The position numbers and the translations under genes are program-made. Positions 19,058-56,344 of a DNA stretch of 64,000 bases are shown here, in pieces. This DNA is from Methyloversatilis discipulorum. Lineage in GTDB: Bacteria; Pseudomonadota; Gammaproteobacteria; Burkholderiales; Rhodocyclaceae. Position 1 is the first letter of the stretch, and each line of letters begins with the position of its first letter. Below the pieces are notes generated by a model that was not told the origin of the DNA, did not search any database, and saw only the letters and a program-made list of their open reading frames with translations. The stretch spans positions 3,658,001 to 3,722,000 of the forward strand of contig NZ_ARVV01000001.1 in the NCBI RefSeq assembly GCF_000385375.1, given 5' to 3'.

Positions 19058-20285
19058 CGGGTGTGCTTCCGTGTTGGGTTGAACGCGCCGGAGCAGGCGC
19101 ATCGAGCCAGGCATCGAGCGCAGCCAGAGCGCTGTCCCAGCGGTAGACCAGCTCGATCCGGGCACGCGCCGCCTGGCCGATCGCCTGCGCGTAAGCAGGA
19201 TCGAACAATGCCAGCACGCGCTCGGCGTAGCTGGCCGCGTCGGCGGCGAGGAAATCGCGCCCCGGCTGTGCGTCGAGGCTGGCCGACAGCGTATGCCAGA
19301 CGACCACCGGCCGCGCCAGCGCCATCGCTTCCAGCACCTTGTTCTGGATGCCGCGCGCGACGCGCAGCGGCGCCACCGCGCAGGCAGCGTGGGCGACCCA
19401 GGGGCGCACGTCGTCGACGCGGCCGGTCACCGTGACGAAGCCGGTCTTCTCCAGTTCGCGCACGGCAGGCGCCGGATTCATGCCGACGACGAAGAAATGC
19501 GCGGCCGGCTCGACGGCACGGATGCGCGGCATCACCTCGTTGGCGAACCAGCAGGCGGCGTCGATATTGGGCCAGTAGTCCATCGCACCGGTAAACACGA
19601 CCGGCTTCACGCCCGAGGCGTACGGGTTCGCGCCGGCGTTCGCCGGGTTGAAGAAGTCGACATCGACGCCATTGGGCAGCGCCTCGACGCGCCCCTTCAG
19701 CGTGGGCGCCAGCGATTCGAACAGCGCCACCTCGGCTGGCGTGACCAGCAGGCTGCGGTCGGCGGCGGCAACCACGCCCGCCTCGAAATCAAGCAGCGTG
19801 CGCGCTTCGCGCCGGTACAGCCAGGACATCGGCCACCGGTGGCGCGGCGCGTACTCGGACCACTTGGCCGAATCGACATCGACCAGATCGACGATGCGGT
19901 GCACCTGCGGATGGCGGTCGAGGTACTGCGCCATGGTCGAGCAGAACACGACCGCCTTCGTGATGCGGTGGCGGGCGATGGTGTCATCGACCCAGCGCTG
20001 CATCGCTGCCGACCGGTAGTAGACGACGCTGAGCGCTTCGCGGGTTGCCAGCGCGCGCAGCGACAGCAGCTTGCGGCTGCGCGGGGCGATGGTTTCGGTG
20101 TGCAGTTGCACGCACATCGCCGCCAGTTCGGGCAGGTGAGGCAGGTCGGCCGGGTCGTCGACGAAGGTGCCGACGTGCAGCGCATGGCGACGCGCCAGAT
20201 GCTTCAGCAGGTGGAAGGAGCGGATCTTGTCGCCCTTGTTGGGCGGAAAGGGCAGCCGATGGGCGAGGAAGAGCAGCGGCTCCAC
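19023..20285 (-). CDS. XrtA/PEP-CTERM system glycosyltransferase (GT4)
   Basis: The 420-residue protein begins VEPLLFLAHRLPFPPNKGDKIR, the hallmark N-terminus of a second exosortase-linked glycosyltransferase family. The C-terminal donor domain includes RGIQNKVLEAMALARPVV. A GTG start at 20285, 5 bp after the FemAB stop, is preferred over an ATG far upstream that would overlap that gene. Its 3' end overlaps the exosortase start. It presumably contributes one linkage of the exopolysaccharide. Confidence 0.9.
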   Translation of the reverse strand: MEPLLFLAHRLPFPPNKGDKIRSFHLLKHLARRHALHVGTFVDDPADLPHLPELAAMCVQLHTETIAPRSRKLLSLRALATREALSVVYYRSAAMQRWVDDTIARHRITKAVVFCSTMAQYLDRHPQVHRIVDLVDVDSAKWSEYAPRHRWPMSWLYRREARTLLDFEAGVVAAADRSLLVTPAEVALFESLAPTLKGRVEALPNGVDVDFFNPANAGANPYASGVKPVVFTGAMDYWPNIDAACWFANEVMPRIRAVEPAAHFFVVGMNPAPAVRELEKTGFVTVTGRVDDVRPWVAHAACAVAPLRVARGIQNKVLEAMALARPVVVWHTLSASLDAQPGRDFLAADAASYAERVLALFDPAYAQAIGQAARARIELVYRWDSALAALDAWLDAPAPARSTQHGSTPDVQPDVLHARG

Positions 20286-28716: not shown

Positions 28717-29343
28717 TCAGAACCAGCTCTGCGGAATGATGAGAATGTCACCCGGCTTGACGTCGACATTGGCCGTCACGTCGCCGCGGCGGACCAGGTC
28801 CTTCAGGCGCACGTTGTACTGCTTGTCGCCCTCGGAGGTCCGCAGGATGGTGGCCGCGTTGCCGTCGGCGAATTCGGTAATGCCGCCAACCGCGATCATC
28901 ACGTCGAGCAGCGTCATCTTCTGCTTGTAGGCCAGCGCCTGCGGCTTGGCCGCCTCGCCGATCACGCGGATCTGCTCGCTGTAGGGACCGATGCCGCCGG
29001 CGACGATGACCGTCACGATGGGGTCACGGATGTACTTCGACAGCACCTGCTCGATCTCTCGCGCCAGCGTCGTGGGATCGCGGCCGGCAGCCGGCAGATC
29101 CTCGAACAGGGTGCCGGTGATCTTGCCGTCCGGGCGGATGGTGACCGTGGACGAGATTTCGGGATTGCGCCAGACGACGATGTTCACCGAGTCACCGGGG
29201 CCCAGGATGTAGTTGTAGTCGTCGCTGTAAGCCTGAGTCGGCGCGGCCGGATAGGGCGACGACGAGCAGGCCGTGAAGGCAAGCGGCACGAGCAGCAGCG
29301 CAAGCACGCGCAGTGCGGACATCAGACGGTCAGAACTCAACAT
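28717..29343 (-). CDS. XrtA system exopolysaccharide export lipoprotein (Wza/EpsA-like)
   Basis: The 208-residue protein has a lipoprotein signal ending LAFTAC and then a Poly_export domain beginning DYNYILGPGDSVNIVVW, followed by SLBB-like repeats. It should form the outer-membrane export channel with its lipid anchor. GGAGG stands just upstream of the ATG at 29343. This is the first gene of the minus-strand operon, so a promoter should lie in the 84 bp before it, although none is obvious. Its short length is usual for the XrtA type. Confidence 0.93.
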   Translation of the reverse strand: MLSSDRLMSALRVLALLLVPLAFTACSSSPYPAAPTQAYSDDYNYILGPGDSVNIVVWRNPEISSTVTIRPDGKITGTLFEDLPAAGRDPTTLAREIEQVLSKYIRDPIVTVIVAGGIGPYSEQIRVIGEAAKPQALAYKQKMTLLDVMIAVGGITEFADGNAATILRTSEGDKQYNVRLKDLVRRGDVTANVDVKPGDILIIPQSWF

Positions 29344-29427
29344 TGCATCCTCCACAGGACAGCAGCCAGACAAGCCGCGAATCATAGCCAACGCATCCGG
29401 ACGCGCGCTCTAATGCGTCACGACCGG

Positions 29428-30639
29428 TCAGATGTTGTACCGCAACGCATCGACGATGGGCGTACGCGAAACCTTGCGTGCCGGCAGCAAGGCCGCCACC
29501 ACGGTCGCGCCCAATCCCACCGTGAAGGCCAGCAGCACGGTTTCGGGCAGCACACGTATCGACGCCGTGTACCCCACGTTCGAGTTCGGCGGCGGCGGCA
29601 TCGGAATGCCCACCTCGCTGATCGCCAGCGCGACGAGCACCCCCAACACCACGCCGATCGCCGCGCCGGTCAGACCAAGCAGGGCATTTTCGGCGAGCAC
29701 GAGCCGGAATACGTATCCTCGCGAATTTCCGAGCGCCATCAGCGTTCCGAATTCACCGACGCGCTCGAAGACACTCATGTTTACAGTATTGAAGACGCTC
29801 AGCAGCACCATGATCAGCACGATCCATTGCAGCACGCCGAACTGGGTGCGGTAGAGCTCCACGGTCTTCGAATAGAAATCCGAAAGCTGCACCCAGTCGC
29901 GGATGTCGAATCCCAGCGACGCCAGCTTGGGCACCAGCAGATCCTTCACCCGCCAGGTGTCCGCTGTCCGGTGCAGCAGCAGCACGATGGCGTTGGAACC
30001 ATCGCGCGCAACCAGATTTCGAGCCGCCGCGATGGGAATCCTTACGGCACGGGCGTCGAAATCTTTCGAAAAGCTCTGGAAAACCCCGACCACCGCAAAT
30101 TCCGTCGTGTTCAATGCGCCGTCGGCAGTGTTCATGATCAGCGTGACGGTGTCGCCCGGCGCCAGTGCCAGGGCCTTGGCGACGCCATCGCCGATCAGGA
30201 TGCCGCCGGTGTCGCTGTCGCGCAGTGCCCGGCCAGCGGTGATCCGGACGAAGGTGCCGAGCCGGTTTTCCTTGTCCGGCTCCACACCCTCGCCCATGAC
30301 CGCCCAGTCCGCCTTGCCGTTGTTCAGCAGGCCAGTGAAATTGACGCGCTGCAGCACCGCATCCGCCTCCGGCATGCGGGCAGCAAACTCGGCGACCTTG
30401 TCGGCGTCGTCGATCATGAACTTCTCGGGCGAACGCGCACCCTGCTCGTAGAAGCCGCTGCGGAAGACCTGCACGTGGCCGAGCTGGCTGTGTATGGTCG
30501 CTTCGCCCAGCTGCGTCAGCACATCGGCGACGAAGCCGCCGCTCAGTATCAGTCCGGCAACGCCAAAGACGATGGCGGCCAGAGTCATCGCTGTCCGCGA
30601 TTTCTGCCGGAGGATGTTGCGGAGCGCGAGCTTGAACAT
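29428..30639 (-). CDS. ABC transporter permease, FtsX/LolE/MacB type (second of pair)
   Basis: The 403-residue protein begins MFKLALRNILRQKSRTAMTL, with one N-terminal membrane helix, a periplasmic MacB_PCD-like domain and three C-terminal helices carrying the FtsX motif (FGTLMALGNSRG). This layout is shared by LolC/LolE and MacB, which extract substrates from the outer leaflet instead of passing them through a channel. It lies 5 bp after a paralogous permease. No ATPase is adjacent; the nearest suitable one is at 39005-39757. Substrate may be a lipid or lipoprotein. Confidence 0.88.
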   Translation of the reverse strand: MFKLALRNILRQKSRTAMTLAAIVFGVAGLILSGGFVADVLTQLGEATIHSQLGHVQVFRSGFYEQGARSPEKFMIDDADKVAEFAARMPEADAVLQRVNFTGLLNNGKADWAVMGEGVEPDKENRLGTFVRITAGRALRDSDTGGILIGDGVAKALALAPGDTVTLIMNTADGALNTTEFAVVGVFQSFSKDFDARAVRIPIAAARNLVARDGSNAIVLLLHRTADTWRVKDLLVPKLASLGFDIRDWVQLSDFYSKTVELYRTQFGVLQWIVLIMVLLSVFNTVNMSVFERVGEFGTLMALGNSRGYVFRLVLAENALLGLTGAAIGVVLGVLVALAISEVGIPMPPPPNSNVGYTASIRVLPETVLLAFTVGLGATVVAALLPARKVSRTPIVDALRYNI

Positions 30640-30644
30640 GGCGT

Positions 30645-31874
30645 TCAGCGACTCTGCCGCAGTGCGTCGACGATATTCATGCGCGACGCTCGCCAGGCGG
30701 GGTAAAGACTGGACACGAAGGCACTGACCACGGCAATCGCCAGTGCCTTGGCGACGATGCCGAAAGTCAGGCGGATCTCGCCGTCGAACCCCTGCTCCAT
30801 GCCGGGCGGCGGCGGCAGCGGAATGCCGACCGCCGAGATGGCCAGCGCCAGCGCACAACCGATGACCACCCCGAGCCCGCCGCCGACCAGACCGAGCATC
30901 ACGCCCTCCGACATGAAGATGCGCCGTATGCGCGCCCGCGTCAGGCCCAGCGCCATGCAGGTGCCGATCTCGCTGACGCGCTCCATCACGCTCATCGACA
31001 GCGTGTTGGAAATGCTGAGCACGATGATCATCAGAATGATGAACTGCACGACATTGACCTGGCTGGCAAACAGATCGCGCGTCTTGTTGTAGAAGTCGGA
31101 CAGGCGATACCAGGGCACCAGTTCGAAGTTCGCGGCCGGCAGCACCTTGCCCAGTTCGGCCAGCTTGGCGTCGGTCTTGTCGGTGTCGTCGAGCAGCACC
31201 AGCCACTGCTGCGCGCCATTCACCCGCACCAGTTGCTGCGCCAGCGCCAGCGGCATGCGCAGCGCCGAATCATCGTATTCCTTGCTGACGGAGATGAAGA
31301 TGCCGACGACCGGCGCCTCGACCGCATTGACGTTGCCGGCGGCGGTCGTCGTCATCAGCACCACGGTGTCGCCGACATTGACGCCCAGGTTGGCCGCCAG
31401 TCCCCGCCCCATGATCATTTCGTTGACGCCGTCGGGCGACAGATTGCGCCCGCGCGATATCGTGACCGAACTCGACAGCACTGCCTCCGCCTTTGCAGAG
31501 ACGCCCTGGCCGAGGAAGGCCAGCGTGTTGTCGCCCTTGCTCGCGAGCCCGTTGAAGCTGAGTCGTGGCGCCACGACCTTGACGCCTGCGCCCTGCTCGA
31601 CCTTGCGCTGCGCTGCGTCCTCACCATCGATGACGAAACCGAAGGGATCGGAGGTGCCCCGTTCCACATACCCCGGTCGAACCACCTGGACGTGGCCAAG
31701 CTGCGACTTGATGGTGGATTCGCGCATGCCCTCCATCAGCCACTCGATGAACCCGGCTGACAGAATCATCGCAATCACGCCGAAGCTCACCGCGCCAATG
31801 GCAATCAGCGTGCGTCGCCCCTGGCGGAGCACGCTGCGCATCGCAAGCCAAAGGTCGAGCAGCCAAAACTTCAT
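30645..31874 (-). CDS. ABC transporter permease, FtsX/LolC/MacB type (first of pair)
   Basis: The 409-residue protein has the same plan as its downstream neighbour: N-terminal helix (RRTLIAIGAVSFGVIAMIL), large periplasmic domain and three C-terminal helices with IGTCMALGLTRARI. The two share segments such as STIKSQLGHVQV and HSQLGHVQV, so they are ancient paralogues that probably form a heterodimer like LolCE. The gene faces away from the ThiF gene across a 110-bp divergent gap that should hold both promoters. Confidence 0.88.
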   Translation of the reverse strand: MKFWLLDLWLAMRSVLRQGRRTLIAIGAVSFGVIAMILSAGFIEWLMEGMRESTIKSQLGHVQVVRPGYVERGTSDPFGFVIDGEDAAQRKVEQGAGVKVVAPRLSFNGLASKGDNTLAFLGQGVSAKAEAVLSSSVTISRGRNLSPDGVNEMIMGRGLAANLGVNVGDTVVLMTTTAAGNVNAVEAPVVGIFISVSKEYDDSALRMPLALAQQLVRVNGAQQWLVLLDDTDKTDAKLAELGKVLPAANFELVPWYRLSDFYNKTRDLFASQVNVVQFIILMIIVLSISNTLSMSVMERVSEIGTCMALGLTRARIRRIFMSEGVMLGLVGGGLGVVIGCALALAISAVGIPLPPPPGMEQGFDGEIRLTFGIVAKALAIAVVSAFVSSLYPAWRASRMNIVDALRQSR

Positions 31875-31984
31875 GCGAATTCAAGACTTCAGATGCTAAG
31901 GTATTGCCAGCATAACAGTTTTTACCTCACCATCCGATGTCCCGGAAGCGTGCCCCGCAGCCAACGGACATACAAGGCGACGCC

Positions 31985-32860
31985 ATGAGCTCTGCTTTCA
32001 ATTACGACGAGGCCTTCAGCCGCAACCTCGGCTGGTTCACCGAGGCCGAACAGGCCAGACTTCGGCGCAGCACGGTCGCCATCGCCGGCCTCGGCGGCGT
32101 CGGCGGCGCCCACCTGCTGACGCTGGCCCGGCTCGGCATCGGACGATTCCGTATCGCCGATTTCGATACCTTCGGTGTACACAACTTCAACCGGCAGGTC
32201 GGGGCCATGATGAGCACGGTCGACCGGCCCAAGATAGAGGTACTGGCCGAACAGGCGCGCGACATCAATCCCGAGGCCGACATAACGTGCTTTCCGGAAG
32301 GCGTGTCGCCGGAGCAGCCGGACGCCTTCCTGCAGGGCTGCGATGTCTATGTAGACGGCCTCGATTTCTTCGCCTTCTCCGCCCGCAGGTCCACCTTCGC
32401 AGCCTGCCATCGCCTGGGTATCCCGGCAGTGACGGCAGCCCCGCTCGGGATGGGCACCGGATTGCTCGTGTTTTCGCCGCGCGGCATGACTTTCGAGGAC
32501 TACTTCCAGCTGGAAGGCCACGACGAGACCGAACAGGCGCTGCGATTCCTGGTCGGTCTGGCGCCTGCCGGACTGCATCGCCCCTATCTGGTCGAGCCCT
32601 GGCGCATCGATCTCGCGGCGCGCAAAGGCCCGTCGACGATGATCGGGTGCAATCTGTGCGCCGGCGTTGCCGCCGCTGAAACGGTCAAGCTTCTGCTCGG
32701 CCGCGGCGAAGTCCGGGCAGCGCCTTGGGCACTGCAGTTCGACGCCTACCGCAACCGGATGGTGCGCACCTGGCGCCCCGGCGGAAACCGGCACCCGCTG
32801 CAGCGGCTCATCCTTGCGCTCGGTCGGCGCCAGTTGCTGAAACAGATCAACGCGCGCTGA
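31985..32860 (+). CDS. ThiF/MoeB-type E1-like adenylyltransferase
   Basis: The 291-residue Rossmann protein has the nucleotide loop GLGGVG at 35-40, the E1 arginine motif NFNRQ at 67-71, and the acidic DGLD with Arg134-Arg135. It lacks the two CxxC zinc pairs of MoeB, retaining only Cys222 and Cys225. ThiF-type enzymes activate a carboxylate with ATP; targets include ubiquitin-like proteins, peptides or small acids. No ubiquitin-like protein, JAB protease or sulfurtransferase is adjacent. It precedes a nitroreductase-like gene by 24 bp, recalling the fused Rv1355c-type arrangement. The start at 31985 gives a compact N-terminus. Confidence 0.9.
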   Translation: MSSAFNYDEAFSRNLGWFTEAEQARLRRSTVAIAGLGGVGGAHLLTLARLGIGRFRIADFDTFGVHNFNRQVGAMMSTVDRPKIEVLAEQARDINPEADITCFPEGVSPEQPDAFLQGCDVYVDGLDFFAFSARRSTFAACHRLGIPAVTAAPLGMGTGLLVFSPRGMTFEDYFQLEGHDETEQALRFLVGLAPAGLHRPYLVEPWRIDLAARKGPSTMIGCNLCAGVAAAETVKLLLGRGEVRAAPWALQFDAYRNRMVRTWRPGGNRHPLQRLILALGRRQLLKQINAR

Positions 32861-32884
32861 ACACGCCGCCCACCGGAGAACCGA

Positions 32885-33955
32885 ATGCCCACGATAGACA
32901 AGATCCTCGACCTCGCACGCTGGGCGCCGAGCGGCGACAACACCCAGATCTGGCGTTTCGAGGTGCTCGCCGACGATCACGTGCGGGTGCACGGTTTCGA
33001 CACCCGGCACTGGTGCGTCTATGACCTTGAGGGGCACGCCAGCCAGATTGCGGTCGGCGCGATGCTGGAAACACTGTCCATTGCAGCAACTGCCCACGGC
33101 CTTCGCGCCGATATCGTTCGTCGGCCGGACACGCCGGACACTCATCTGCAGTTCGACATCAAGCTGGTCGCCGACCCGTCAGTCACACCCGACCCGCTGC
33201 TCCCGTGCATAACGACGCGCTCGGTGCAGCGCCGTGCGATGGGCAGCCGACCGTTGACGGACGAGGAGCGGCAAGCGCTCGAAGCAGCCGTGCTTCCCTA
33301 CCGCATCGTCTGGTTTGGCGCATTCCGGGATCGGCTGCGCATCGCCAAGCTGAATTTCGACAGCGCGCAGATCCGCCTGACCATTCCGGAAGCCTTCCAG
33401 ACCCACAGCCGCGTGATCGAGTGGGGCGCACGTTTCAGCGAGGACCGCATCCCCGAAGCAGCTGTCGGCGTCGACCCGCTCACCGGCAAGCTGATGCGTT
33501 TCGTCATGGCAAGCTGGAGTCGCGTCGAATTCTTTAACAGGTGGCTCTTCGGCACTTTCGCACCGCGGCTGCAACTCGATCTGATTCCGGGCATCGCCTG
33601 CTCGGCGCACGTCTTCATGATCGCCCCGACGCGCCCAGACCGCATCGACGATCACATCGCAACGGGCCGTGCCATGCAACGGCTCTGGCTGACGGTAGAA
33701 AAGCTGGGGCTCCAGTCACAGCCCGAGATGACGCCGCTCATCTTCAACCAGTACGCGCGGGCCGGGCGGCGATTCACGCAGAACGGCGACGCACTCGCCC
33801 GCGCCGACGATCTGGCGCAAAGGCTGGGCAGCCTGCTGCCGGGAGAGGACGTCGGACGAGCGGTCTGGGCGTGCCGCGTCGGACGCAGCCGAAACATCCC
33901 CGGCCGCTCATTGCGCCTGCCTCTTGAACGACTGCAGAACCAGGAAGAGTCTTGA
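32885..33955 (+). CDS. Nitroreductase-fold flavoprotein paired with ThiF
   Basis: The 356-residue protein starts with the FMN-binding ARWAPSGDNTQIW motif of the nitroreductase family, and has a second half (residues about 195-345) with WLTVEKLGLQSQPE, also typical. It is longer than ordinary 200-residue nitroreductases and resembles the C-terminal half of ThiF-nitroreductase fusions. It may oxidise or reduce the product of the neighbouring E1-like enzyme, as such enzymes do in azoline/azole pathways, but no peptide precursor is visible. Co-transcription with the ThiF gene is likely. Confidence 0.85.
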   Translation: MPTIDKILDLARWAPSGDNTQIWRFEVLADDHVRVHGFDTRHWCVYDLEGHASQIAVGAMLETLSIAATAHGLRADIVRRPDTPDTHLQFDIKLVADPSVTPDPLLPCITTRSVQRRAMGSRPLTDEERQALEAAVLPYRIVWFGAFRDRLRIAKLNFDSAQIRLTIPEAFQTHSRVIEWGARFSEDRIPEAAVGVDPLTGKLMRFVMASWSRVEFFNRWLFGTFAPRLQLDLIPGIACSAHVFMIAPTRPDRIDDHIATGRAMQRLWLTVEKLGLQSQPEMTPLIFNQYARAGRRFTQNGDALARADDLAQRLGSLLPGEDVGRAVWACRVGRSRNIPGRSLRLPLERLQNQEES

Positions 33956-34074
33956 AGCAGGACTGTCGGTGGACTTTACACGCGGCAGCAGAGCGCATCC
34001 GCCGACCGCCAGAAACCAGCCAGACACAGATTTTTTTGTTTTAAATTCAAAGAGCTAAAACACCACACAAAAAC

Positions 34075-34090
34075 TGGCCCGCCGATTGCT
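34075..34090 (+). promoter_or_regulatory. Sigma-54 promoter of the PEP-CTERM gene
   Basis: TGGCCCGCCGATTGCT fits the -24/-12 consensus with the invariant GG and GC exactly 10 nt apart. Transcription should begin near 34101, about 36 nt before the start codon. PEP-CTERM genes are known to be under RpoN with the PrsK/PrsR pair in related floc formers; neither regulator is in this window. The region just upstream is AT-rich, unlike its surroundings. Confidence 0.75.
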
Positions 34091-34136
34091 TATAGCCAAC
34101 CGTGGTTCTCCCAAGCCAACAAACGGAGTCAATGAA

Positions 34137-35150
34137 ATGATCAAGTTCAAGCAAATTGCAGTTGCAGTGGCACTGGCAGGCACTTTCGCTGCCGCGCACG
34201 CTGCGCCGGTTTCGATCACCACGCCGAACGGCAACGTGAATGGCATCACCGCCTTCGACTGGGCACCGTCCCCGGTTCTGGCGCAAGGCGGCAACCAAGC
34301 CTTCGTCAACTTCATCAACAACCCCGCTGGTGGCACCGTTGAAGGCCTGAACGGTGGCATGGGTTACGGTTTCAACGTGTTCTCGCAAGGCCGTCTGGCC
34401 GTGCTGCAGGGCGGCACCGGTGCCGCTGTGAGCGGCCTGTACAACGGTTCGGGCAGCACTGCCGGCAAGTACGAAATCACCTTCGAACTGGCCTACCAGG
34501 AAGTCGTGACCACCGCCGTGAGCGTGCCGGGCGCCAACATCGCCGTGTTCGACTTCGCCAAGGTCCAGACCAACAACTACTTCCGTGTTTACGTGAAGGA
34601 TCTGGATTCCGACGCAGCCGCCAACTACGCAGCCGGCACCGGCTTCAACACCGGCACGCTGGTGTTCGACGGCACGATCGCTCCGGGCGGTGCTGGTTCG
34701 GTGTCGAACTTCAATGCCAACACCGGCGCCCTGGGCACGGTCGGCAGCGATGGTCAGCCGCTCAACGGCACTTCGCCGCTGTCCGGTACGCCGTCGGTGA
34801 CGGGTTCGGGCGCCACGCCGGAATTCGACCTGCTGACCGTTCTGCCGAACTTCATCGACACGGATTTCTGGAATGAAGAGCTGATCTCCTTCCTGGTGAC
34901 CAACATCAGCCAGAACCTGCCGTTCCAGTCGGTTGATCCGTCGGCCATCATCGCCGGTGAAGTGCCGAACATCGGTGCAGTGAATGGCGGTACGGTCTGC
35001 GGCCCGACGGGTTGCGTTGCAGCCGGCCCGGACATCATCTTCCAGACCGACTTCAACGGTCCGGTGCAAGGCATCCCCGAGCCGGGCACGCTGGCTCTGG
35101 CCGGTCTGGCACTCGGTGGTCTGGCTCTGGCCCGCCGCCGCAAGGCCTGA
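34137..35150 (+). CDS. PEP-CTERM sorting domain protein (exosortase substrate)
   Basis: The 337-residue protein has a signal peptide (MIKFKQIAVAVALAGTFAAAHA), a Gly/Asn/Thr-rich secreted body with one close Cys pair (VCGPTGC), and a C-terminal sorting signal: PEP at 314-316, a hydrophobic helix and RRRKA. Exosortase A should cleave it at the PEP motif. A GGAG ribosome site stands 8 nt upstream, a sigma-54 promoter before that, and a strong terminator follows, so it looks monocistronic and highly expressed. Its function is unknown; related proteins aid floc formation. Confidence 0.95.
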   Translation: MIKFKQIAVAVALAGTFAAAHAAPVSITTPNGNVNGITAFDWAPSPVLAQGGNQAFVNFINNPAGGTVEGLNGGMGYGFNVFSQGRLAVLQGGTGAAVSGLYNGSGSTAGKYEITFELAYQEVVTTAVSVPGANIAVFDFAKVQTNNYFRVYVKDLDSDAAANYAAGTGFNTGTLVFDGTIAPGGAGSVSNFNANTGALGTVGSDGQPLNGTSPLSGTPSVTGSGATPEFDLLTVLPNFIDTDFWNEELISFLVTNISQNLPFQSVDPSAIIAGEVPNIGAVNGGTVCGPTGCVAAGPDIIFQTDFNGPVQGIPEPGTLALAGLALGGLALARRRKA

Positions 35151-35172
35151 TTCAGGTAGTCGAAGCAGCATG

Positions 35173-35204
35173 AAAAACGGGAGCGAAAGCTCCCGTTTTT
35201 CTTT
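35173..35204 (+). terminator. Rho-independent terminator after PEP-CTERM gene
   Basis: A perfect 12-bp stem (35173-35184 with 35189-35200) closes on a GAAA tetraloop and ends in a T run. Because the stem begins with five A residues it could also terminate the opposite strand, where a glycosyltransferase gene ends at 35257. Confidence 0.93.
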
Positions 35205-35256
35205 TGTGCGTTCGAAATCGCACGTTCCGAACCCGTTATTGCCCAGCCAGCCCGCT

Positions 35257-36459
35257 CTATGCCGATGCAACCAGCGCGTTCAGAATCGAGCGGGTATTGA
35301 AACTGGCGAAGTCCTGCTGGACCGCCTCGGCAGCTCGCCTGAAGTCCGCAGCTTCATCCCCGACCATGCGCCTGAGTGCGGTCCGCAGCTGTTCGTAGCT
35401 CACGTTGCCCGCACGCAATGAAATCCCCGCACCGGCATCGACCACACGCGACATGGTGAGGAACTGATCCATGTTCGAACACAGACCGATGACCGGCGTG
35501 CCGGTCGACAAGGCCTGATAGACCGTCGCACTTCCGCCATTGCAGATGACGAAATCTGCGCGCGCAGCGGCTTCGAGCCCCGGCAGATAATCGGCAACGA
35601 AACAATGCGGTCCGGGCGAAGCCACGTCCGAGCGCCCCGCCGTAGCCGTCATCGCATTGACCTGCACATCGGCCAGCGCGCGAAATACCTCCGGCAGCAG
35701 ATCGACCCGCCCGGTGGAACCCAGCGTGACATAGGCAAGCGGCCCGGACGGCATCGACGTCCACCAGTCCGGCAGCGGCATCGAGGGCGACCAGATGATG
35801 GGCCCGATGAAATGGTGGTTGGGCGGACAGTCCGGACGCACCGGCACCAGACCCGGCGTGTCGGCGTAAAGCGTCAGATCGCCGTCGGTGTAGGCATGGC
35901 GCACATCGGGAAAGCCGCTCAAGCCGTGCTTTCTGCGTACCGCGTTGAGCGGCCCGGCGTGCAGTCGGAAGGCGAGCGGCTGCGCCAGCCGGAAAATCGG
36001 CTCTGCCAGCGCGGGTCCGAGCACACGGGTCAGAGTGATGTCCGGCAAGGGAAAGCGAGAATGCGCCGACCACGGGCTCCAGTGTGCATTGCAGAGCGCG
36101 AAGTAAGGGATGCCGACCAGGCGCGCCGACACGCTCAGCGACAGACGGAAGTCGCCGATGACCACATCGGGACGTTCGCGCTGCAGCAACGCGATGTCGG
36201 CCTCGACATAGCGCTCGAGCTCGGTGCGGGTATAGAGCGGTGCGCCGGCAGCGAGGCGATCGAGAAAGAGCTTGGCCGGAATGCTCTCCAGCCCCAGCCT
36301 GCGAAGATCCGTTCCGCGGAAGCACAGATCGAAGGCCGGTGCGGACGCGACCGACACCTCATGATGCGCCGCAAGACCCGATGCCAGCACGACGGGCCGG
36401 GCGACATGCGCGAGGGATACCGCCTCCGCCGCGAACAGAACGCGGCGGCGGGTCGACAT
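35257..36459 (-). CDS. UGT/MGT-like glycosyltransferase (GT1 family)
   Basis: The 400-residue GT-B protein has an N-terminal AEAVSLAHVARPVVLAS segment and a C-terminal UDP-glycosyltransferase signature, with FVADYLPGLEAAARADFVICNGG followed by LSTGTPVIGL. GT1 enzymes usually glycosylate small hydrophobic acceptors rather than growing polysaccharides. Its ATG overlaps the epimerase stop by one base (TGATG), so sugar nucleotide epimerisation and transfer are probably coupled. The acceptor could be the N-acyl amino acid made by the nearby synthase; this is a guess. Confidence 0.83.
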   Translation of the reverse strand: MSTRRRVLFAAEAVSLAHVARPVVLASGLAAHHEVSVASAPAFDLCFRGTDLRRLGLESIPAKLFLDRLAAGAPLYTRTELERYVEADIALLQRERPDVVIGDFRLSLSVSARLVGIPYFALCNAHWSPWSAHSRFPLPDITLTRVLGPALAEPIFRLAQPLAFRLHAGPLNAVRRKHGLSGFPDVRHAYTDGDLTLYADTPGLVPVRPDCPPNHHFIGPIIWSPSMPLPDWWTSMPSGPLAYVTLGSTGRVDLLPEVFRALADVQVNAMTATAGRSDVASPGPHCFVADYLPGLEAAARADFVICNGGSATVYQALSTGTPVIGLCSNMDQFLTMSRVVDAGAGISLRAGNVSYEQLRTALRRMVGDEAADFRRAAEAVQQDFASFNTRSILNALVASA

Positions 36460-37592
36460 CAGGCGCCCCCGGCGCGACCGAACAGGCCGAAGCGCGTCAG
36501 TTCGGCGACGGTCTGCTGATAGCGATCCTCCGATGGCTGCCCGCCCGCCCAAGCGGCGAACTCCGCCATGCCCTGATCAAGCGTACGCGCCGGCTCGTAA
36601 CCGAGCACTGCGCGCGAGTGCGCCAGATCGGCAACGCACCCGAAGATGTCGCCGACACGGAACTCGCCCTTGTCCTCCATCGTTACCGGCTTGCCGACTG
36701 CACGTGCGAGCGCGTTGGCGATGTCGGCGATCGTGCTCGCCTCGCCGGCGCCGACATTGAAGACGGAGCCCGGCGCCACGTCGGCGACCAGCGCACGCAT
36801 ATTCGCCGCAACCACGTCGGACACATGCACGAAATCGCGCACCGGCAGGCCGCCCTCGTACACCGAGATCGGCTGACCGGCGCAGATGCGCGAATAGAAG
36901 ATCGATACCACGCCGGTGTAGGGATTCTTCAGCGACTGACGCGAGCCGAAAACGTTGAAGTAACGCAGCACGACCGCCGGAATACCGAACGTGTTCGCCG
37001 CGTAGCGCACGTAATCTTCCTGATGCTTCTTGGTGATCGCATAGACCGAGAACGGCTCTGACACCTTGTCTTCCGGCGTCGGTACCGCGTCGAGATCATC
37101 GCCGCAAACCGGGCAGGGCATCGCGAACTTGCCCGCCTGCAGGCGCTCGCGCGAGCGAGCACCCGGAAACTGGGCGCCGTGCTCACGGCAGACATAGGCA
37201 CCCTCGCCGTAGATCGCACGCGACGAAGACAGCACCAGCCGCTTCAGCACATGGCCACCCTTTACGATGCCCTCGATCAGGGTGGTCGTACCCAGCCCAT
37301 TGACCCGCGCGTAATGGGTCATGTCGTACATGCTCTGGCCAACGCCGGTCAGCGCAGCGAAGTGGTAGACCGAGTCGATGCCGTCGAGCGCGCGCGCGAC
37401 GTCGTCGGCATTGCAGACGTCACCGACCTGCAGTTCCACCTCAGGCGCGAGATAGGCCGGCCGTTGGCGGCTTTCGCCATGTATCTGCGGATCGAGAATG
37501 TCCAGCGCACGCACGCTGTGGCCGGCGGCCAGCAGCGCGTCCGCCGTGTGTGAGCCGATGAAGCCGGCACCGCCCGTGATCAGCACTCGCAT
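36459..37592 (-). CDS. NAD-dependent nucleotide-sugar epimerase, dTDP-rhamnose 4-epimerase-like
   Basis: The 377-residue extended SDR protein has GGAGFIGSH near the N-terminus and the catalytic Tyr-Lys in YAITKKHQED. An inserted Cys-bearing segment (CREHG and CPVCGDDLD, followed by PTPEDK) before the active Tyr resembles the insertion in dTDP-L-rhamnose 4-epimerases. It should interconvert a nucleotide sugar in the cytoplasm. Coupling to the GT1 gene suggests it supplies that enzyme. UDP-sugar epimerase activity is an alternative. Confidence 0.8.
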   Translation of the reverse strand: MRVLITGGAGFIGSHTADALLAAGHSVRALDILDPQIHGESRQRPAYLAPEVELQVGDVCNADDVARALDGIDSVYHFAALTGVGQSMYDMTHYARVNGLGTTTLIEGIVKGGHVLKRLVLSSSRAIYGEGAYVCREHGAQFPGARSRERLQAGKFAMPCPVCGDDLDAVPTPEDKVSEPFSVYAITKKHQEDYVRYAANTFGIPAVVLRYFNVFGSRQSLKNPYTGVVSIFYSRICAGQPISVYEGGLPVRDFVHVSDVVAANMRALVADVAPGSVFNVGAGEASTIADIANALARAVGKPVTMEDKGEFRVGDIFGCVADLAHSRAVLGYEPARTLDQGMAEFAAWAGGQPSEDRYQQTVAELTRFGLFGRAGGA

Positions 37593-37610
37593 GTGGCACC
37601 TCCGCCCGAA

Positions 37611-39008
37611 TCAGAAGGAGTAGCGCAGCTCGCCGTAGTAGCGGTCCGAGTTGCCGAAACGCCCGAAATAGCCATTGGAATTGCCGCCGAACAGATCCGC
37701 ACCGAACTGCGCGCGCCAGTTGGACTGCACGCGCCAGATCAGCTTGGGGCGGAACATGTAGTCGTTGCGTACCAGCGACTGCACCCACAGCAGTTCGCCT
37801 TCGAGCCGCTCGTCGAACTTGTGGTTGTACAGCACCGCCATGCCGTTCTCGCGCCGGCTCGCCAGCAGGTCTGGCGCCTTGTCCATGTGGGCGCGCTCGA
37901 AGTACTGGAGATTGAGCCGCGACTCCGACATGAAGGGAATATCGATGCCGATCGCGTAATCGACCATGTCCTGACGGACCAGTCCGTCGGGCCGTGCCGA
38001 CAGCGGCGACACAGGGAGGTAGCGATCGTAGGTCAGCACCGCTTCGGCCTTCAGCAGAAAGCTGCCGAAGTCCTTGGTCAGCGTTGCACCATACTGATGA
38101 ATCCAGTCGTGTCGCGGCGTGTAGACCACCGCAGTCGGGGCGACGAATCGACGACTGAAGGTCGGATTCACGTCCAGGCTACGGTAGTAGAAGGCAGCCA
38201 GATCCCAGCCCTGTACCAGGGTACCGACTCGGAGGCCGTAGTTCGAGTTGCTCAGCTTGCGATCCGGTCGCACCTGCGCGTCATAGGTCGCGCTGATGCC
38301 CTGCAGGTCGGGTTGCGTCAGGTAGAAATCGCCGCCGAAGCGGCCGATGTTGTCGACGCTCACGTAGGGCACCCAGATCAGCTCGGCGCGCCAGTCGTTC
38401 TTGAAGTACTCGGCGCGTGCCGCCCACTGCGGGATGCGCTGCTGGTCGAATTCCTGCGTGAAGAATTCGCGCATGTCACGCGCCGACACCACGTCGGCGA
38501 AGAACAGGCCGACCATTTCGCCCCACACGATGTGCTGGCGACCAAGGCGCAGTTCGACGTCGCCGACCGGCATGTCGAGATAGACCTCGCGCCACGCAAA
38601 TTCGCTGCGCCGGTCGTCCCGTACCGCGGCCGGGTAGAAGTCGCTCTCCCAACCGTAGGCAAAGTCGTAATCGACGCGGCCCACGGCCTTCCACTTGATG
38701 CCCTGACCGAAACTGCCGCTGCGGCCGAGTTCGTTGCGCCAGCGCGCCTTCGACCAGTGGCTGTCGCCAGCCACCGTACGCGCCAGTTCGAATTGGCTGA
38801 AGCCGCGCCAGCCCGACATCGACGACGAGGCCTCCTCATCGGCCTTCGGCTTGCCCTGCGCATCGCTGGCTGCTTCGGGCGCCGGTTCGACGAACAGGTC
38901 ATCGAGCGGATCGGCCGCCAGCGCGGGCCGGGCAACGAGCAGGATTGCCAGCGTCAGCGCTGCCAGGGGCAGGCGGCGCAAGGCGGAAAGTAAATCGAAG
39001 TGCGTCAT
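37611..39008 (-). CDS. DUF1302-like outer-membrane protein
   Basis: The 465-residue protein has a signal peptide ending ARPALA, a short acidic/Pro-rich linker and about 400 residues of aromatic-rich beta strands ending LRYSF, the C-terminal Phe expected of a barrel. Segments such as LRLGRQHIVWGEMVGLFFADVVSARDMREF resemble DUF1302 proteins. The ATG at 39008 overlaps the ATPase stop as ATGA, so it is likely the outer-membrane component for that transporter. It could alternatively be a general hydrophobe porin. Confidence 0.82.
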   Translation of the reverse strand: MTHFDLLSALRRLPLAALTLAILLVARPALAADPLDDLFVEPAPEAASDAQGKPKADEEASSSMSGWRGFSQFELARTVAGDSHWSKARWRNELGRSGSFGQGIKWKAVGRVDYDFAYGWESDFYPAAVRDDRRSEFAWREVYLDMPVGDVELRLGRQHIVWGEMVGLFFADVVSARDMREFFTQEFDQQRIPQWAARAEYFKNDWRAELIWVPYVSVDNIGRFGGDFYLTQPDLQGISATYDAQVRPDRKLSNSNYGLRVGTLVQGWDLAAFYYRSLDVNPTFSRRFVAPTAVVYTPRHDWIHQYGATLTKDFGSFLLKAEAVLTYDRYLPVSPLSARPDGLVRQDMVDYAIGIDIPFMSESRLNLQYFERAHMDKAPDLLASRRENGMAVLYNHKFDERLEGELLWVQSLVRNDYMFRPKLIWRVQSNWRAQFGADLFGGNSNGYFGRFGNSDRYYGELRYSF

Positions 39009-39757
39009 GAAGCAGCCTGCAGAGTGGCGGATTTCGGGGGTTTGACGTAGGCCCATTCACCCGGTGATTTCTGTACGCCGAGCGCGGTCAGTTCGCCGTC
39101 CTCGATGCGTACCAGACGGTCGGCCATCGACATCACGCGCTTGTCGTGAGTGGAGAAGATGAAAGTGGTCTTCATCGTGCGGTTGATCTCGCGCATCAGC
39201 TCGAGTATCGAATCGCCGGTCTTTCGGTCGAGGTTGGCGGTCGGCTCGTCGGCCAGCACGATTGCCGGCTGCACCGCCAGCGCACGGGCAATCGCCACAC
39301 GCTGGCGCTGTCCACCTGACAACTGGTTGGGTCGATGATGCATCTTCGGGCCCAGGCCGACGATGTCGAGAAAGTACTTCACCCGCTTCGCGCGCTCGTC
39401 CCTGCTGACCTCCGGCAACTGCAGCAGCGGATACTCGACGTTCTCGTAGGCCGACAGGACCGGCAGCAGATTGAAGGTCTGGAAGATGAAACCGATGGTG
39501 CGCGCGCGCAGACTGGCCAGTTCGTCCGGCGTCTGCCCCGACACGTCCTGACCGTTGATCAGGATCTGCCCCGAAGTCGGTGTATCGATGCAACCGATCA
39601 GGTTCAGCAGGGTCGACTTGCCACTGCCGGAGGGGCCGGCAATGGCAATGAACACGCCGTCCTCGATATCCAGCGTGATATTCTTCAACGCATTGACCTG
39701 CTGTCCGCCGAGCATGTAGCTGCGGCTCACATTCCGGATCTGGACGACGTTGTTCAT
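39005..39757 (-). CDS. ABC transporter ATPase, LolD/MacB type
   Basis: The 250-residue ATPase has Walker A GPSGSGKST (41-49), the signature LSGGQ (146-150) and Walker B VLADEP (167-172). It belongs to the LolD/MacB branch, which pairs with FtsX-type permeases. No permease is adjacent; the pair at 29428-31874 is the obvious partner. The start MNNVVQI at 39757 discards 56 upstream codons that overlap the divergent LolA-like gene. The C-terminal tail after residue 225 is slightly extended. Confidence 0.93.
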   Translation of the reverse strand: MNNVVQIRNVSRSYMLGGQQVNALKNITLDIEDGVFIAIAGPSGSGKSTLLNLIGCIDTPTSGQILINGQDVSGQTPDELASLRARTIGFIFQTFNLLPVLSAYENVEYPLLQLPEVSRDERAKRVKYFLDIVGLGPKMHHRPNQLSGGQRQRVAIARALAVQPAIVLADEPTANLDRKTGDSILELMREINRTMKTTFIFSTHDKRVMSMADRLVRIEDGELTALGVQKSPGEWAYVKPPKSATLQAAS

Positions 39758-39810
39758 CAGGAAGCCCGGTTCAGAAGACGGGTCATGCGCCCGGTGCTGG
39801 AGACAAAAAA

Positions 39811-40623
39811 ATGAATGTTCCGAACACCCCGCTCGGCGTGCGCGAAGCCACCACCACCGGCCCATCGTCGCACCGGCGCAAGACGTTCGCGCGGATCCTT
39901 GCAACTGTTGCAGCTCTTGCGGCACCGTTCTGCATCGCGCCGTCCGCCTTTGCCCAAGATGCCGCGAGTATACTTGAAAAGGCCGACACCATCCGCTTCC
40001 CGCGGGAGCCCTTCCAGGTCGAGGTCAGCGTCACCTCGACCACGTCCAGCGGCGAAGAATTCCGCAAGTACCGCATCCTGTCCAAGGGCAACGAGAACAC
40101 CATCGTGCAGACGGTCGAGCCGGCTTCCGAGCGCGGCCAGATACTGTTGATGAAGGCGCGCGACCTGTGGGTGTTCCTGCCCACCGTGTCGCAGCCGGTA
40201 CGCCTTTCGCTGGCCCAGCGTCTGACCGGCCAGGTCGCCAACGGTGACCTGGCTCGCGCCAACTTCTCGGGCGACTACACGCCCAAGCTGCTGCGCACCG
40301 AGAAGCTCGATGGTCATGACCACCACGTGCTCGAACTGACGGCGGTCGATCGCGGCGTCACCTACTCGCGCGTGCTGCTCTGGGTGCGCACATCGAACAA
40401 CGCACCTCACAAGGCCGAGTTCTATTCCCTGTCGGACAAGCTGCTGAAGACCTGCATCTATGATGAATACAAGACGCTGGGCGGCAAACTCCGCCCGACC
40501 CGTCTGGTCATGCAGGACGCACTGAAACAGGGCGAACAATCGACGCTCGAGTACGCGTCGATGCAGTTGCGCGACATACCCGACAAGGTGTTCGACAAGG
40601 AATACCTGAAGAAACTACAGTAA
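39811..40623 (+). CDS. LolA-like outer-membrane lipoprotein-sorting protein
   Basis: The 270-residue periplasmic protein has a signal sequence ending APSAFAQD and then a LolA-like half-barrel (PF17131-type), seen in MKARDLWVFLPTVSQPVRLS and LRPTRLVMQDALK. It should carry a hydrophobic cargo from an FtsX-type ABC extractor to the outer membrane. It is divergent from the ATPase across 53 bp with GGAG 8 nt before its ATG. It probably shares a transcript with the following acyltransferase gene. Confidence 0.87.
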   Translation: MNVPNTPLGVREATTTGPSSHRRKTFARILATVAALAAPFCIAPSAFAQDAASILEKADTIRFPREPFQVEVSVTSTTSSGEEFRKYRILSKGNENTIVQTVEPASERGQILLMKARDLWVFLPTVSQPVRLSLAQRLTGQVANGDLARANFSGDYTPKLLRTEKLDGHDHHVLELTAVDRGVTYSRVLLWVRTSNNAPHKAEFYSLSDKLLKTCIYDEYKTLGGKLRPTRLVMQDALKQGEQSTLEYASMQLRDIPDKVFDKEYLKKLQ

Positions 40624-40683
40624 AGGTCAGCAGGCCACGCACGCGGGATGCACCCGCGGCGTCATACACGGTCGGACAACATC

Positions 40684-41436
40684 ATGTTTCTGCTTGAAGT
40701 CGGAAACCTCAAGGAAAACTTCGCCAAGTACTTCGCGGTGGAAGCCGCGGTCGATGAGGCGATGAAGCACGAGGTCTATCGTGTCCGGCACGCAGTGTAC
40801 TGCCAGGAACTCGGCTACGAAGCCACCAACCCCGACCTCGAGGAGACCGACAGCTTCGACGCGCACGCGCTGCAGATCGCGTTGCGCGCCCAGGCAAGTG
40901 GCCGCATCGTCGGCTGTGTGCGGCTGGTGCAGACAGACCCGGACGACCTCGCGAAACCACTCCCGTTCGAACATCTTTGCGAAACGGCAATCGACCGGAG
41001 CATCATCGACCCGGCCCGCGTCGACCGCCGGCGCATGGTGGAGATCTCCCGCCTCGCTGTACTGTCGGACTACCGCAAGCGTAAGGGCGACAGCAGCGGT
41101 CCGATCGCCATTTCGGAAGAGGACATGGGAACGCGGGACCAGCCCCGCTTCCCCTACATCCCGGTCGGCCTCTACCTCGGCCTGCTTGCCGCCGCGGAGT
41201 TGCACGACATCGAACATCTTTTCACGCTGACCGAGGCGCGCCTCGCCCGGCATCTGAGTGCGCTGGGCTTCCGCATCCACCTGATCGGCCAGGCGGTGGA
41301 GCACCGCGGCAAGCGCGTGCCGTCGGTCATCTACCGTAAGGAACTGATGGCACATCTGCCGCCGTTCATGCAGCCGCTGTACGACCAGTTGCTCGAGGAG
41401 ATGCGCGGAAAATACAGGGCGCGGAACGCCGCATGA
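40684..41436 (+). CDS. PEP-CTERM/exosortase-associated N-acyl amino acid synthase
   Basis: The 250-residue GNAT-fold protein matches the exosortase-associated acyltransferase family: VYRVRHAVYCQELGYE (the LuxI-like substrate segment), GRIVGCVRLVQ, and a VEISRLAVLSDYRKRK stretch. Members have been reported to make long-chain N-acyl amino acids from acyl-ACP. Genetic linkage to exosortase loci is established; the product's role is not. I prefer the ATG at 40684 with GGA 7 nt upstream over the ATG at 40648. A strong terminator follows. Confidence 0.9.
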   Translation: MFLLEVGNLKENFAKYFAVEAAVDEAMKHEVYRVRHAVYCQELGYEATNPDLEETDSFDAHALQIALRAQASGRIVGCVRLVQTDPDDLAKPLPFEHLCETAIDRSIIDPARVDRRRMVEISRLAVLSDYRKRKGDSSGPIAISEEDMGTRDQPRFPYIPVGLYLGLLAAAELHDIEHLFTLTEARLARHLSALGFRIHLIGQAVEHRGKRVPSVIYRKELMAHLPPFMQPLYDQLLEEMRGKYRARNAA

Positions 41437-41519: not shown

Positions 41520-41595
41520 TGGTGGCCAAGGGCGGAATCGAACCACCGACACGCGGATTTTCAATCCGCTGCTCTACCAACTGAGCTACTTGGCC
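41520..41595 (-). tRNA. tRNA-Phe (anticodon GAA), CCA encoded
   Basis: The minus strand folds into a 76-nt cloverleaf: acceptor stem GGCCAAG paired with CTTGGCC, D-arm with AGCTCAGTTGGTAGAGC, anticodon loop TTGAAAA giving GAA, and T-arm with GGTTCGATTCC. It ends in discriminator A and an encoded CCA. Length and layout match bacterial tRNA-Phe. Confidence 0.98.
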
Positions 41596-55938: not shown

Positions 55939-56053
55939 GTGCGGGCACCTTCGGCATGGGCGCGCGACCAAAGCGCGGCGCGGGGACTGTGCTGCATTCT
56001 TCCTCCGGATGTTCTTGTCGTGCGCGGCCGTCAGGCCACGCCGACTCCGGTTT

Positions 56054-56069
56054 TGCAACGAGCGTGCCA
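56054..56069 (-). promoter_or_regulatory. Sigma-54 promoter of the reductase-oxygenase operon
   Basis: The minus strand reads TGGCACGCTCGTTGCA, an exact match to TGGCACG-N4-TTGCA. The start should fall near 56042, about 104 nt before the reductase ATG. The nearest activator is the DmpR-like protein 4-5 kb away, which presumably acts on this site too. Confidence 0.9.
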
Positions 56070-56146
56070 AGCTCATCCTGCAGCGCAAGCCATTGATTCG
56101 ATGTCGATTACAAATATCAGCGCGGCATTCACCGCGCACTCCGGAC

Positions 56147-56195
56147 GGCACTTCCGGATTTGTGAAATCCGCATTTCCGCATATGGAGAAGTGCC
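56147..56195. promoter_or_regulatory. Nested palindrome, candidate upstream activating sequence
   Basis: An outer inverted repeat GGCACTTC (56147-56154) and GAAGTGCC (56188-56195) encloses a perfect dyad CGGATTT-GTG-AAATCCG (56155-56171). It lies about 105-155 bp upstream of the predicted sigma-54 start, the usual place for XylR/DmpR-type sites. The 406-bp gap (55939-56344) otherwise holds only the promoter, leader and a terminator. Confidence 0.45.
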
Positions 56196-56228
56196 GCGGC
56201 ACCACGACAGACGCACGCGACAGCGGCG

Positions 56229-56268
56229 AAAAAAAGCCCCGCCGCGGGGGGTACCGGGGCGGGGTGCT
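56229..56268 (-). terminator. Rho-independent terminator after the DUF1329 gene
   Basis: On the minus strand CCCCGCC and GGCGGGG form a stem around a 14-nt loop, followed by CTTTTTTT. It separates the transport operon from the reductase-oxygenase promoter. Confidence 0.85.
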
Positions 56269-56344
56269 TCCCGACGAGCGGGAACGAGGAGTACTGCTCA
56301 CATCATCGTTGGCGTCACGCGGACAGGCGTGACGGGGGCGGGCT

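Follow-up and report, generated by a model that had tools for sequence, protein, structure and literature searches.

The gene set described here lies within a 64-kb window, the whole stretch of DNA that was analysed, and is bordered by an XrtA-type exopolysaccharide cluster with an exosortase. Every gene named in an earlier, sequence-only reading was found on a credible open reading frame by the codon model and by Pfam and NCBIfam matches; start codons within the longest reading frames were picked from the translations. Two permeases of the FtsX/LolC-E type with PF12704 and PF02687-type matches are encoded on the reverse strand (permease 2 at 29428..30645; permease 1, of 409 aa, at 30645..31874). 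The forward strand then carries a ThiF/E1-like enzyme of 307 aa (31937..32860), a predicted N-acyl-amino-acid cyclase which scores 468 bits against NF006077/PRK08223 (cut-off 266), and a nitroreductase-fold flavoprotein of the Acg type with 356 aa (32885..33955), a predicted desaturase. The gene after it, which had been missed in the earlier list, encodes on the same strand a PEP-CTERM surface protein with a signal peptide (PF07589; ATG at 34137, stop at 35150), and it is the sole PEP-CTERM reading frame recognized by a pattern search of the 64 kb. On the reverse strand a GT1 glycosyltransferase (MGT/CalG1-like; 35257..36459) has its start overlapping the stop of an NAD-dependent sugar epimerase/dehydratase (PF01370; 36459..37592), and a DUF1302 outer-membrane beta-barrel-like protein with C-terminal Phe (PF06980; 37611..39008) has its start overlapping the stop of a LolD-like ABC ATPase (PF00005; 39005..39757). 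The set ends on the forward strand with a LolA-like periplasmic carrier (PF17131; 39811..40623) and a PEP-CTERM/exosortase-associated acyltransferase of the N-acyl amino acid synthase type (40648..41436), with a TIGR03694 score of 225.9 bits at a cut-off of 111.95. From the neighbouring cluster, the gene of an XrtA-system exopolysaccharide export protein (28717..29391, reverse strand; TIGR03027, 229 bits) adjoins the set, and the exosortase (EpsH plus DUF3485, PF09721 and PF11984) is encoded at 17519..19165, also on the reverse strand. The genome of the window (G000, 4.25 Mb) has three exosortase matches and 62 matches to TIGR02595 at E <= 0.01. A close relative is the Methyloversatilis locus L099, the ThiF protein of which is 98% identical.

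The structure model of the acyltransferase resembled AHL synthases and FeeM by fold comparison (VIA-align, with chains preselected by Foldseek only); it was at least as near to the AHL synthases as to FeeM. Its residues R47, E66, D71, R92 and E132, which we take to be the LuxI/FeeM catalytic set, were invariant in the alignments A2 and A4. An ordinary acetyltransferase was considered as well and rejected, since the TIGR03694 score and the closest folds disagree with it. The nucleotide site of the ThiF protein was intact: the GxGGxG motif (G51/G53/G54/G56), D77, R86, K99 and D143, presumably the adenylation site, were invariant among the 12 sequences of alignment A1. The adjoining flavin protein had the Acg fold by structure comparison, and it scored 95.6 bits with the Rv1355c-type and 118.6 bits with the Rv3131-type model, both below cut-off. 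According to the available parts of PMC12856293, an Asp of a ThiF homologue was required for cyclisation and the Acg fold served as the model for the TrzS desaturase. By analogy, the most likely role of the ThiF protein would be the cyclisation of an N-acyl amino acid.

Additionally, the three enzyme types were found joined in single proteins: FeeM, ThiF and nitroreductase domains occurred together in 8 of 42 long ThiF proteins, and the six fusions that were scanned all had the domain order FeeM-ThiF-nitroreductase. One fusion (P0160) scored above the PRK14852 cut-off (1798 against 1337), while P0163 and P0170 were below it, and in P0168 an RND/MMPL-type exporter was fused to ThiF. Acyltransferase and ThiF genes were at most 11 kb apart in all 15 genomes which carried both. 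The grouping of acyltransferase, ThiF and nitroreductase proposed in the sequence-only reading was thereby upheld, and the sequence data support that the three may work in one pathway. The possibility that ThiF and the nitroreductase are a peptide-modifying pair for azole RiPPs was discarded, as Pfam matched no YcaO in the set and the fusions with FeeM indicate small lipids instead.

The co-occurrence of the genes was followed in a sample of 143 genomes across the class. ThiF of this type was present in 17 of them, the acyltransferase in 15 of these 17 (p = 8e-13) and an exosortase in 16 (p = 9e-9). The absences were also considerable: 8 of the 23 acyltransferase genomes were without this ThiF type and 7 of them without an exosortase (present in 16), 28 of 44 exosortase genomes were without this ThiF, and 12 of 17 ThiF genomes were without the transporter module described below, so acyltransferase, ThiF, exosortase and module cannot be generally required by one another. 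A second collection consisted of 80 ThiF loci, chosen as the top-scoring hits of a single ThiF alignment, with many Oxalobacteraceae among them and falling into 21 clusters at 75% identity. When the acyltransferase was missing from the flank, TIGR03694 was above cut-off nowhere in the genome in 37 of 40 cases. The pathway was in doubt on this account until a FeeM-type synthase was found with a strong match in 26 of the 32 such genomes that the search took in (the 37 less L118, L149, L161, L169 and L173), the other 6 having no strong match; in 20 of the 26 it was located within 15 kb of an exosortase. A search of 200 genomes of the phylum with the NF011425 profile gave no protein above cut-off. 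In one genome (G061) a 1379-aa open frame surrounds one acyltransferase.

The core had been put forward as an undescribed system, and this part of the claim did not hold, because it matches published pathways in which an N-acyl amino acid synthase, an ATP-dependent ThiF cyclase and a flavin desaturase lead to acyl-oxazolones or N-acyl-dehydro-amino acids (available parts of PMC10404671, PMC12856293 and PMC12479983). Among these, OxzAB, TyzABC and TrzAS combine, as separate or fused proteins, a synthase, a ThiF cyclase and an FMN desaturase (PMC10404671 and PMC12856293, as far as available; OxzAB as described there). In contrast to these, the set in the window adds a Lol-type transporter, a GT1 and a PEP-CTERM gene, its proteins score below the Rv1355c-family cut-off, and the word exosortase is in neither PMC10404671 nor PMC12856293. 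The clusters of thalassotalic acid, kyonggic acid and stieleriacine use the synthase, ThiF and nitroreductase for N-acyl-2,3-dehydrotyrosines, and those who described stieleriacine report no oxazolones for three families of related compounds (PMC12479983, in its available parts), a point against the explanation favoured below; the terms exosortase, PEP-CTERM, export, glycosyl, Lol and ABC transporter, however, are all absent from PMC12479983. The stieleriacine cluster of S. maiorica does contain a PEP-CTERM gene, Mal15_37300 (PMC7293339, available parts), and synthase genes near exosortase systems were described by Craig, Cherry and Brady in 2011 (as cited in the available parts of PMC4897644 and PMC7293339). 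Our literature search, which covered open-licence papers only and is no proof of absence, found no paper with PEP-CTERM, nitroreductase and ThiF together; nor did it find, among the same papers, one with any four of PEP-CTERM, exosortase, acyltransferase, LolA and ThiF. The core lipid chemistry is thus already known, and what is new is its pairing with the exosortase/PEP-CTERM system and with a transporter of its own.

Strong matches to the DUF1302 protein and to the FtsX permease were found in the same 6 of the 143 genomes, with LolD- and LolA-like genes alongside (the score thresholds for DUF1302, permease 1 and GT1 were chosen after inspection of the score gaps). Five of these six genomes had ThiF, five had the acyltransferase, each had at least one of the two, and all six had an exosortase; the carrier set and the outer-membrane barrel were found near the ThiF or synthase genes. 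The GT1 had strong matches in 4 of the 143 genomes, all four with ThiF and with the module. In the sequence-only reading, a lack of co-occurrence beyond close relatives was to count against the proposal; the core, the transporter set and the GT1 did co-occur across the sample, and the proposal is not contradicted in this respect. The epimerase, which had been included in the same set, is lineage-specific, being present in 4 of 80 ThiF loci, 3 of them from Methyloversatilis. A glycosylated product is a guess. The transporter is similar to the LolCDE-LolA system of lipoprotein sorting in having a permease pair nearest to LolF/LolE/LolC (the best solved relatives of permease 1), a LolD-type ATPase and a LolA-fold carrier. 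It differs in that the permeases score only 130.5 (permease 1) and 105.4 bits (permease 2) against the lolCE model TIGR02212, below its cut-off of 362.45, the carrier belongs to PF17131, a DUF1302 barrel is added, and strong matches are confined to 6 of 143 genomes. The neighbourhood also gives a context to the solved, still unassigned LolA-like protein NE2245 (3BUU), with which the carrier aligns at 313 bits.

A PEP-CTERM gene was located within 3 kb downstream of ThiF in 53 of the 80 loci and upstream in none, and in 27 none was found within that downstream distance; the pattern gave at least two likely false matches (one in L149, still counted among the 53, and another within the pair of L127). 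At 75% identity 13 of 21 ThiF clusters had such a gene, and the density of PEP-CTERM genes was 0.158/kb within 1.5 kb of ThiF versus 0.011/kb beyond 4.5 kb. These neighbours made up 19 sequence groups. In the even sample one genome (G107) had the PEP-CTERM gene upstream and two (G066 and G061) had none nearby. Furthermore, sigma-54-like sites preceded 36 of 63 PEP-CTERM genes of the ThiF loci (counted at any distance from ThiF in the 80 loci, provided that a start could be recognised and the upstream sequence ran to 200 bases or more) versus 3 of 342 others, the latter being placed by the start of the profile match and not by the true start codon. In the window such a sequence with one mismatch lies 5' of the PEP-CTERM gene (34075..34090, forward strand). 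The window has 4 such matches in total versus 2.3 expected, so sigma-54 control is argued from the 36 of 63 genes, and the promoter here is putative. The combination recalls the RpoN-dependent PepA flocculation proteins, such as the Aquincola pepA involved in floc formation (available parts of PMC9850573), although the protein of the window reaches 40 bits with the flocculation PepA model NF033554, the cut-off of which is 80.

What recurs is thus a combination of lipid biosynthesis of known chemistry, export of the Lol type and a PEP-CTERM gene behind a sigma-54-like promoter. It gives a context to families annotated just as 'hypothetical protein' (PRK08223, PRK14851, PRK14852). The gene group probably makes an unusual lipid, a ring-closed or dehydrated acyl-amino acid, and brings it to the outer membrane. 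The explanation we favour, and hold to be reasonably though by no means firmly probable, is that the genes form a lipid pathway in the service of an exosortase/PEP-CTERM surface (flocculation) system, to which some genomes add a dedicated Lol-type delivery to the outer membrane. The acyltransferase would acylate the amine of a (probably aromatic) amino acid with a long chain; the ThiF protein with ATP would activate the free carboxylate, so that ring closure with the amide oxygen could yield an acyl-oxazolone; and the FMN protein would desaturate the ring product, after which ring opening may lead to an N-acyl-dehydro-amino acid. These three steps are modelled on homologous enzymes of biochemically shown function. 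Where present, the GT1 might put a sugar on a hydroxyl, and the lipid might be extracted from the inner membrane by the two FtsX permeases and their LolD-like ATPase, handed to the LolA-like carrier and brought by it to the outer membrane, for reception or exposure by the DUF1302 barrel. There the lipid might act with the polysaccharide exported by the XrtA system and with a PepA-like PEP-CTERM protein under sigma-54 control to hold the matrix to the cell. For the sugar, the transport and the matrix role we infer from gene content, from the neighbourhood and from published mutant phenotypes in other bacteria; in Methylomonas LW13 disruption of the synthase abolished the polysaccharide band. 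Against this, two unrelated Methylomonas mutants gave the same phenotype.

It could also be supposed that the product is of the thalassotalic acid, kyonggic acid or stieleriacine type, a small molecule secreted or displayed at the surface as a surfactant, antibiotic or signal, and that the exosortase link reflects shared biofilm regulation only. The producers of those compounds carry the same three enzyme types (PMC12479983, available parts), stieleriacines alter the composition of biofilms (available parts of PMC7293339), and the module is absent from 12 of 17 ThiF genomes. We regard this as rather unlikely: in the six module genomes a carrier set and an outer-membrane barrel stand close to synthase or ThiF, and the PEP-CTERM gene lies directly downstream far above background.

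A bolder and distinctly unlikely proposal makes the lipid the acceptor or anchor of the exosortase, with PEP-CTERM proteins cut and joined to it directly or through opening of the oxazolone ring with an amine, and with the Lol-type machine carrying the anchored protein as Lol systems carry lipoproteins. In its favour, exosortase is tracked more closely by ThiF (16 of 17) than by the acyltransferase (16 of 23), a PEP-CTERM gene follows the ThiF-nitroreductase pair in 53 of 80 loci, and the permease is nearest to LolF/LolE/LolC by sequence; moreover, archaeosortase offers a precedent, as its substrates carry a lipid anchor and depend on genes of lipid synthesis, one of them first spotted by synteny (PMC7157517, available parts). 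On the other hand, this ThiF is absent from 28 of 44 exosortase genomes, mycobacteria have a working pathway of this type (available parts of PMC10404671), an N-acyl dehydro-amino acid has no predicted free amine, and the PEP-CTERM neighbours are diverse. The full form, in which the exosortase of these Gram-negative bacteria anchors PEP-CTERM proteins on a dedicated lipid that the set derives from an acyl-oxazolone, and FtsX, LolD, LolA and DUF1302 are a second Lol system moving the anchored proteins to the outer membrane, is slightly more doubtful still. If true, it would be a bacterial route of C-terminal lipid anchoring like that of the archaeosortase.

That the lipid pathway and the tail of the XrtA exopolysaccharide locus are mere chance neighbours gathered near a variable surface locus is very improbable: the lineage-specific epimerase and the presence of the XrtA export gene in only 20 of 80 ThiF loci speak for it, but the genes of the set keep together, in varying order, also at loci whose flanks have no XrtA export gene (L117, L121 and L145, for example), and with the fusion proteins and the co-occurrence counts this makes chance adjacency unlikely for acyltransferase, ThiF, nitroreductase, FtsX pair, LolD, LolA, DUF1302 and GT1.

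The synthase, the E1-like enzyme ThiF and the nitroreductase-fold flavoprotein (NR), often accompanied by a PEP-CTERM gene, form a real system conserved as a set, and the Lol-type module and the glycosyltransferase GT1 join this set in a subset only. The codon model and Pfam/NCBIfam profiles recovered, with the families claimed, all the genes which the sequence-only reading had named at 29428..41436 of the window, part of a 4.25-Mb single-contig genome that is closely related to Methyloversatilis. They stand in two divergent blocks: FtsX2-FtsX1 (-) against ThiF-NR-PEP-CTERM (+) with a gap of 62 bases, and GT1-epimerase-DUF1302-LolD (-) against LolA-acyltransferase (+) with a gap of 53 bases; the PEP-CTERM gene (34137-35150) was absent from the earlier set. 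A tRNA-Phe gene (41520-41595, -), a possible integration point, lies directly past the acyltransferase gene, and according to profile matches an XrtA exopolysaccharide cluster with exosortase adjoins the set on its other side. The suggestion that the system is undescribed has to be withdrawn as regards its chemistry, which is of an already known kind, and the synthase-exosortase link has been published (Craig 2011, as cited in PMC4897644 and PMC7293339). In the open-licence literature searched, no paper was found that deals with the ThiF/NR-exosortase profile, with the sigma-54 PEP-CTERM gene downstream of it or with a dedicated Lol-type module.

All searches, with TIGR03694 (acyltransferase), NF006077 (ThiF), the DUF1302 protein, FtsX1, exosortase and GT1, covered one and the same even sample, 143 genomes from the class. 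The acyltransferase exceeded its cut-off in 23 genomes and ThiF in 17, and exosortase was present in 44 at E <= 1e-10. The genes co-occurred: 15/17 ThiF genomes had the acyltransferase (p 7.7e-13) and 4/4 GT1 genomes the transporter module (p 9e-7); exosortase accompanied ThiF in 16/17 (p 9.2e-9) and the acyltransferase in 16/23 (p 3e-5; Fisher tests throughout, own genome counted, kinship ignored). In all 15 genomes having both, acyltransferase and ThiF were at most 11 kb apart on one contig. Against this, ThiF was not found in 8 of the 23 acyltransferase genomes of this sample, two genomes (G066, G070) carry ThiF without acyltransferase, and G091 carries the module without ThiF, at least 13 kb from its acyltransferase.

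Of at least 573 ThiF loci in an alignment scan, the best 80 were examined within about 10 kb (own profiles, E <= 1e-6, weak matches included). NR flanked 68, the acyltransferase 40, GT1 38 (a tally swollen by Janthinobacterium, Duganella and Rugamonas), FtsX1 and FtsX2 29 each, LolD 28 (several merely generic ABC matches), the XrtA export protein 20, LolA and DUF1302 15 each, and the epimerase 4. The set was retained even though gene order was shuffled (e.g. L109, L134, L145, L167); since L145 is a contig of the sampled genome G021, the two samples overlap. Among the 40 genomes with an acyltransferase-free locus in these best 80, TIGR03694 exceeded its cut-off elsewhere in 3 and exosortase was present in 34. 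The FeeM-type synthase, of another family, was sought in 32 of the remaining 37 genomes, in which TIGR03694 stays below its cut-off; the match was strong in 26 (140-193 bits) and weak in 3, and none was found in 3 of the 32. By coordinates, it lay within 15 kb of exosortase on one contig in 20 of the 26. Several loci (e.g. L033, L034, L040, L044, L095) hold paired acyltransferase genes, tandem or divergent, of unequal score, which suggests two substrates or a heteromer. The second GNAT-type acyltransferase of the own genome (G000:C1:4226293-4226643; PF13444 strong, TIGR03694 weak) is perhaps, at a guess, an ornithine-lipid type enzyme.

PEP-CTERM ORFs, found by their C-terminal signal pattern, concentrated beside ThiF-NR in the best 80 of at least 573 loci: 37 lay within 1.5 kb (0.158 per kb), one of them a false hit within the pair itself. 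Between 1.5 and 3 kb there were 19 (0.085 per kb), between 3 and 4.5 kb 4, and farther out 7 (0.011 per kb), the genome background being 62 matches in 4.25 Mb. With a stricter pattern the gene stood within 3 kb downstream in 53/80 of these loci and within 3 kb upstream in 0/80; when ThiF is clustered at 75% identity, 13 of the 21 clusters have it downstream. In 16 ThiF loci fetched from the even 143-genome sample and the window (n=17), the ORF was within 1.3 kb of ThiF in 10 (9 downstream, 1 upstream, G107) and 6.6-11.3 kb away in 3; the contig stops downstream of ThiF in G139 and G098, and no such ORF was found in G066 and G061. The PEP-CTERM neighbours sort into 19 groups, so the common element is the sorting signal and not one domain. 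A sigma-54-like site preceded 36/63 PEP-CTERM genes within 300 bases versus 3/342 other genes of the set (Fisher p 9e-31, kinship ignored); an exact consensus match also occurs at 56054-56069 (-), within the ORF 54976-56301. Aquincola pepA, with a role in floc formation, has an RpoN-dependent promoter of the same form (PMC9850573). In Stieleria maiorica (Planctomycetota) the stieleriacine cluster includes the PEP-CTERM gene Mal15_37300, numbered next to the oxidoreductase Mal15_37310 (PMC7293339). Disruption of the exosortase-system synthase in Methylomonas LW13 abolished a polysaccharide band and gradient growth, which complementation restored; as two further mutants behaved alike, the effect is not specific to the synthase (PMC11072679).

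The protein queries left gaps in score. The DUF1302 query reached at least 269 bits in 6/143 genomes (next 134) and FtsX1 at least 396 in 6/143 (next 193); both sets of six are identical, and in each genome the five transporter genes lie mutually within about 13 kb. GT1 reached at least 322 bits in 4/143 (next genome 95), inside the locus in G000 and G021 and on a separate contig in G081 and G070; a second copy in G021 scored 123 bits. The best solved relatives of FtsX1 are LolF, LolE and LolC, but both permeases fall below the lolCE cut-off, and therefore the module is named Lol-type and not LolCDE; its transport direction and cargo are inferred. The LolA-like protein (39811-40623) is closely related (313 bits) to NE2245 (3BUU), a solved LolA-superfamily protein deposited as uncharacterised and, by its tag, presumably from Nitrosomonas europaea; the present gene set may lend NE2245 a function. 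The DUF1302 protein ends with Phe, as do many outer-membrane barrels.

The adjacency of mmpL9 and tyz (PMC10404671) and an RND/MMPL-type exporter fused to a ThiF domain (P0168, a single member that could be an artefact) are in keeping with an exporter being required for lipids of this kind. Further domain orders among long ThiF proteins (P0155, P0157, P0158, P0164) are NR-ThiF, methyltransferase-NR-ThiF and ThiF-NR-NR. The XrtA system is also represented by a PrsT-type TPR protein in L152, L160, L165 (TIGR02917, 610 bits), L168 and others; members of its sequence cluster occur in 19 of the loci fetched. Within 10 kb of ThiF-NR, and in many cases together with GT1 and PEP-CTERM genes, L096 and L145 (one contig), L105, L114, L116, L125, L131, L155, L160, L162, L168, L171 and L177 share an acyltransferase-like protein of 231 aa with hexapeptide repeats, which does not belong to the window genes scanned.
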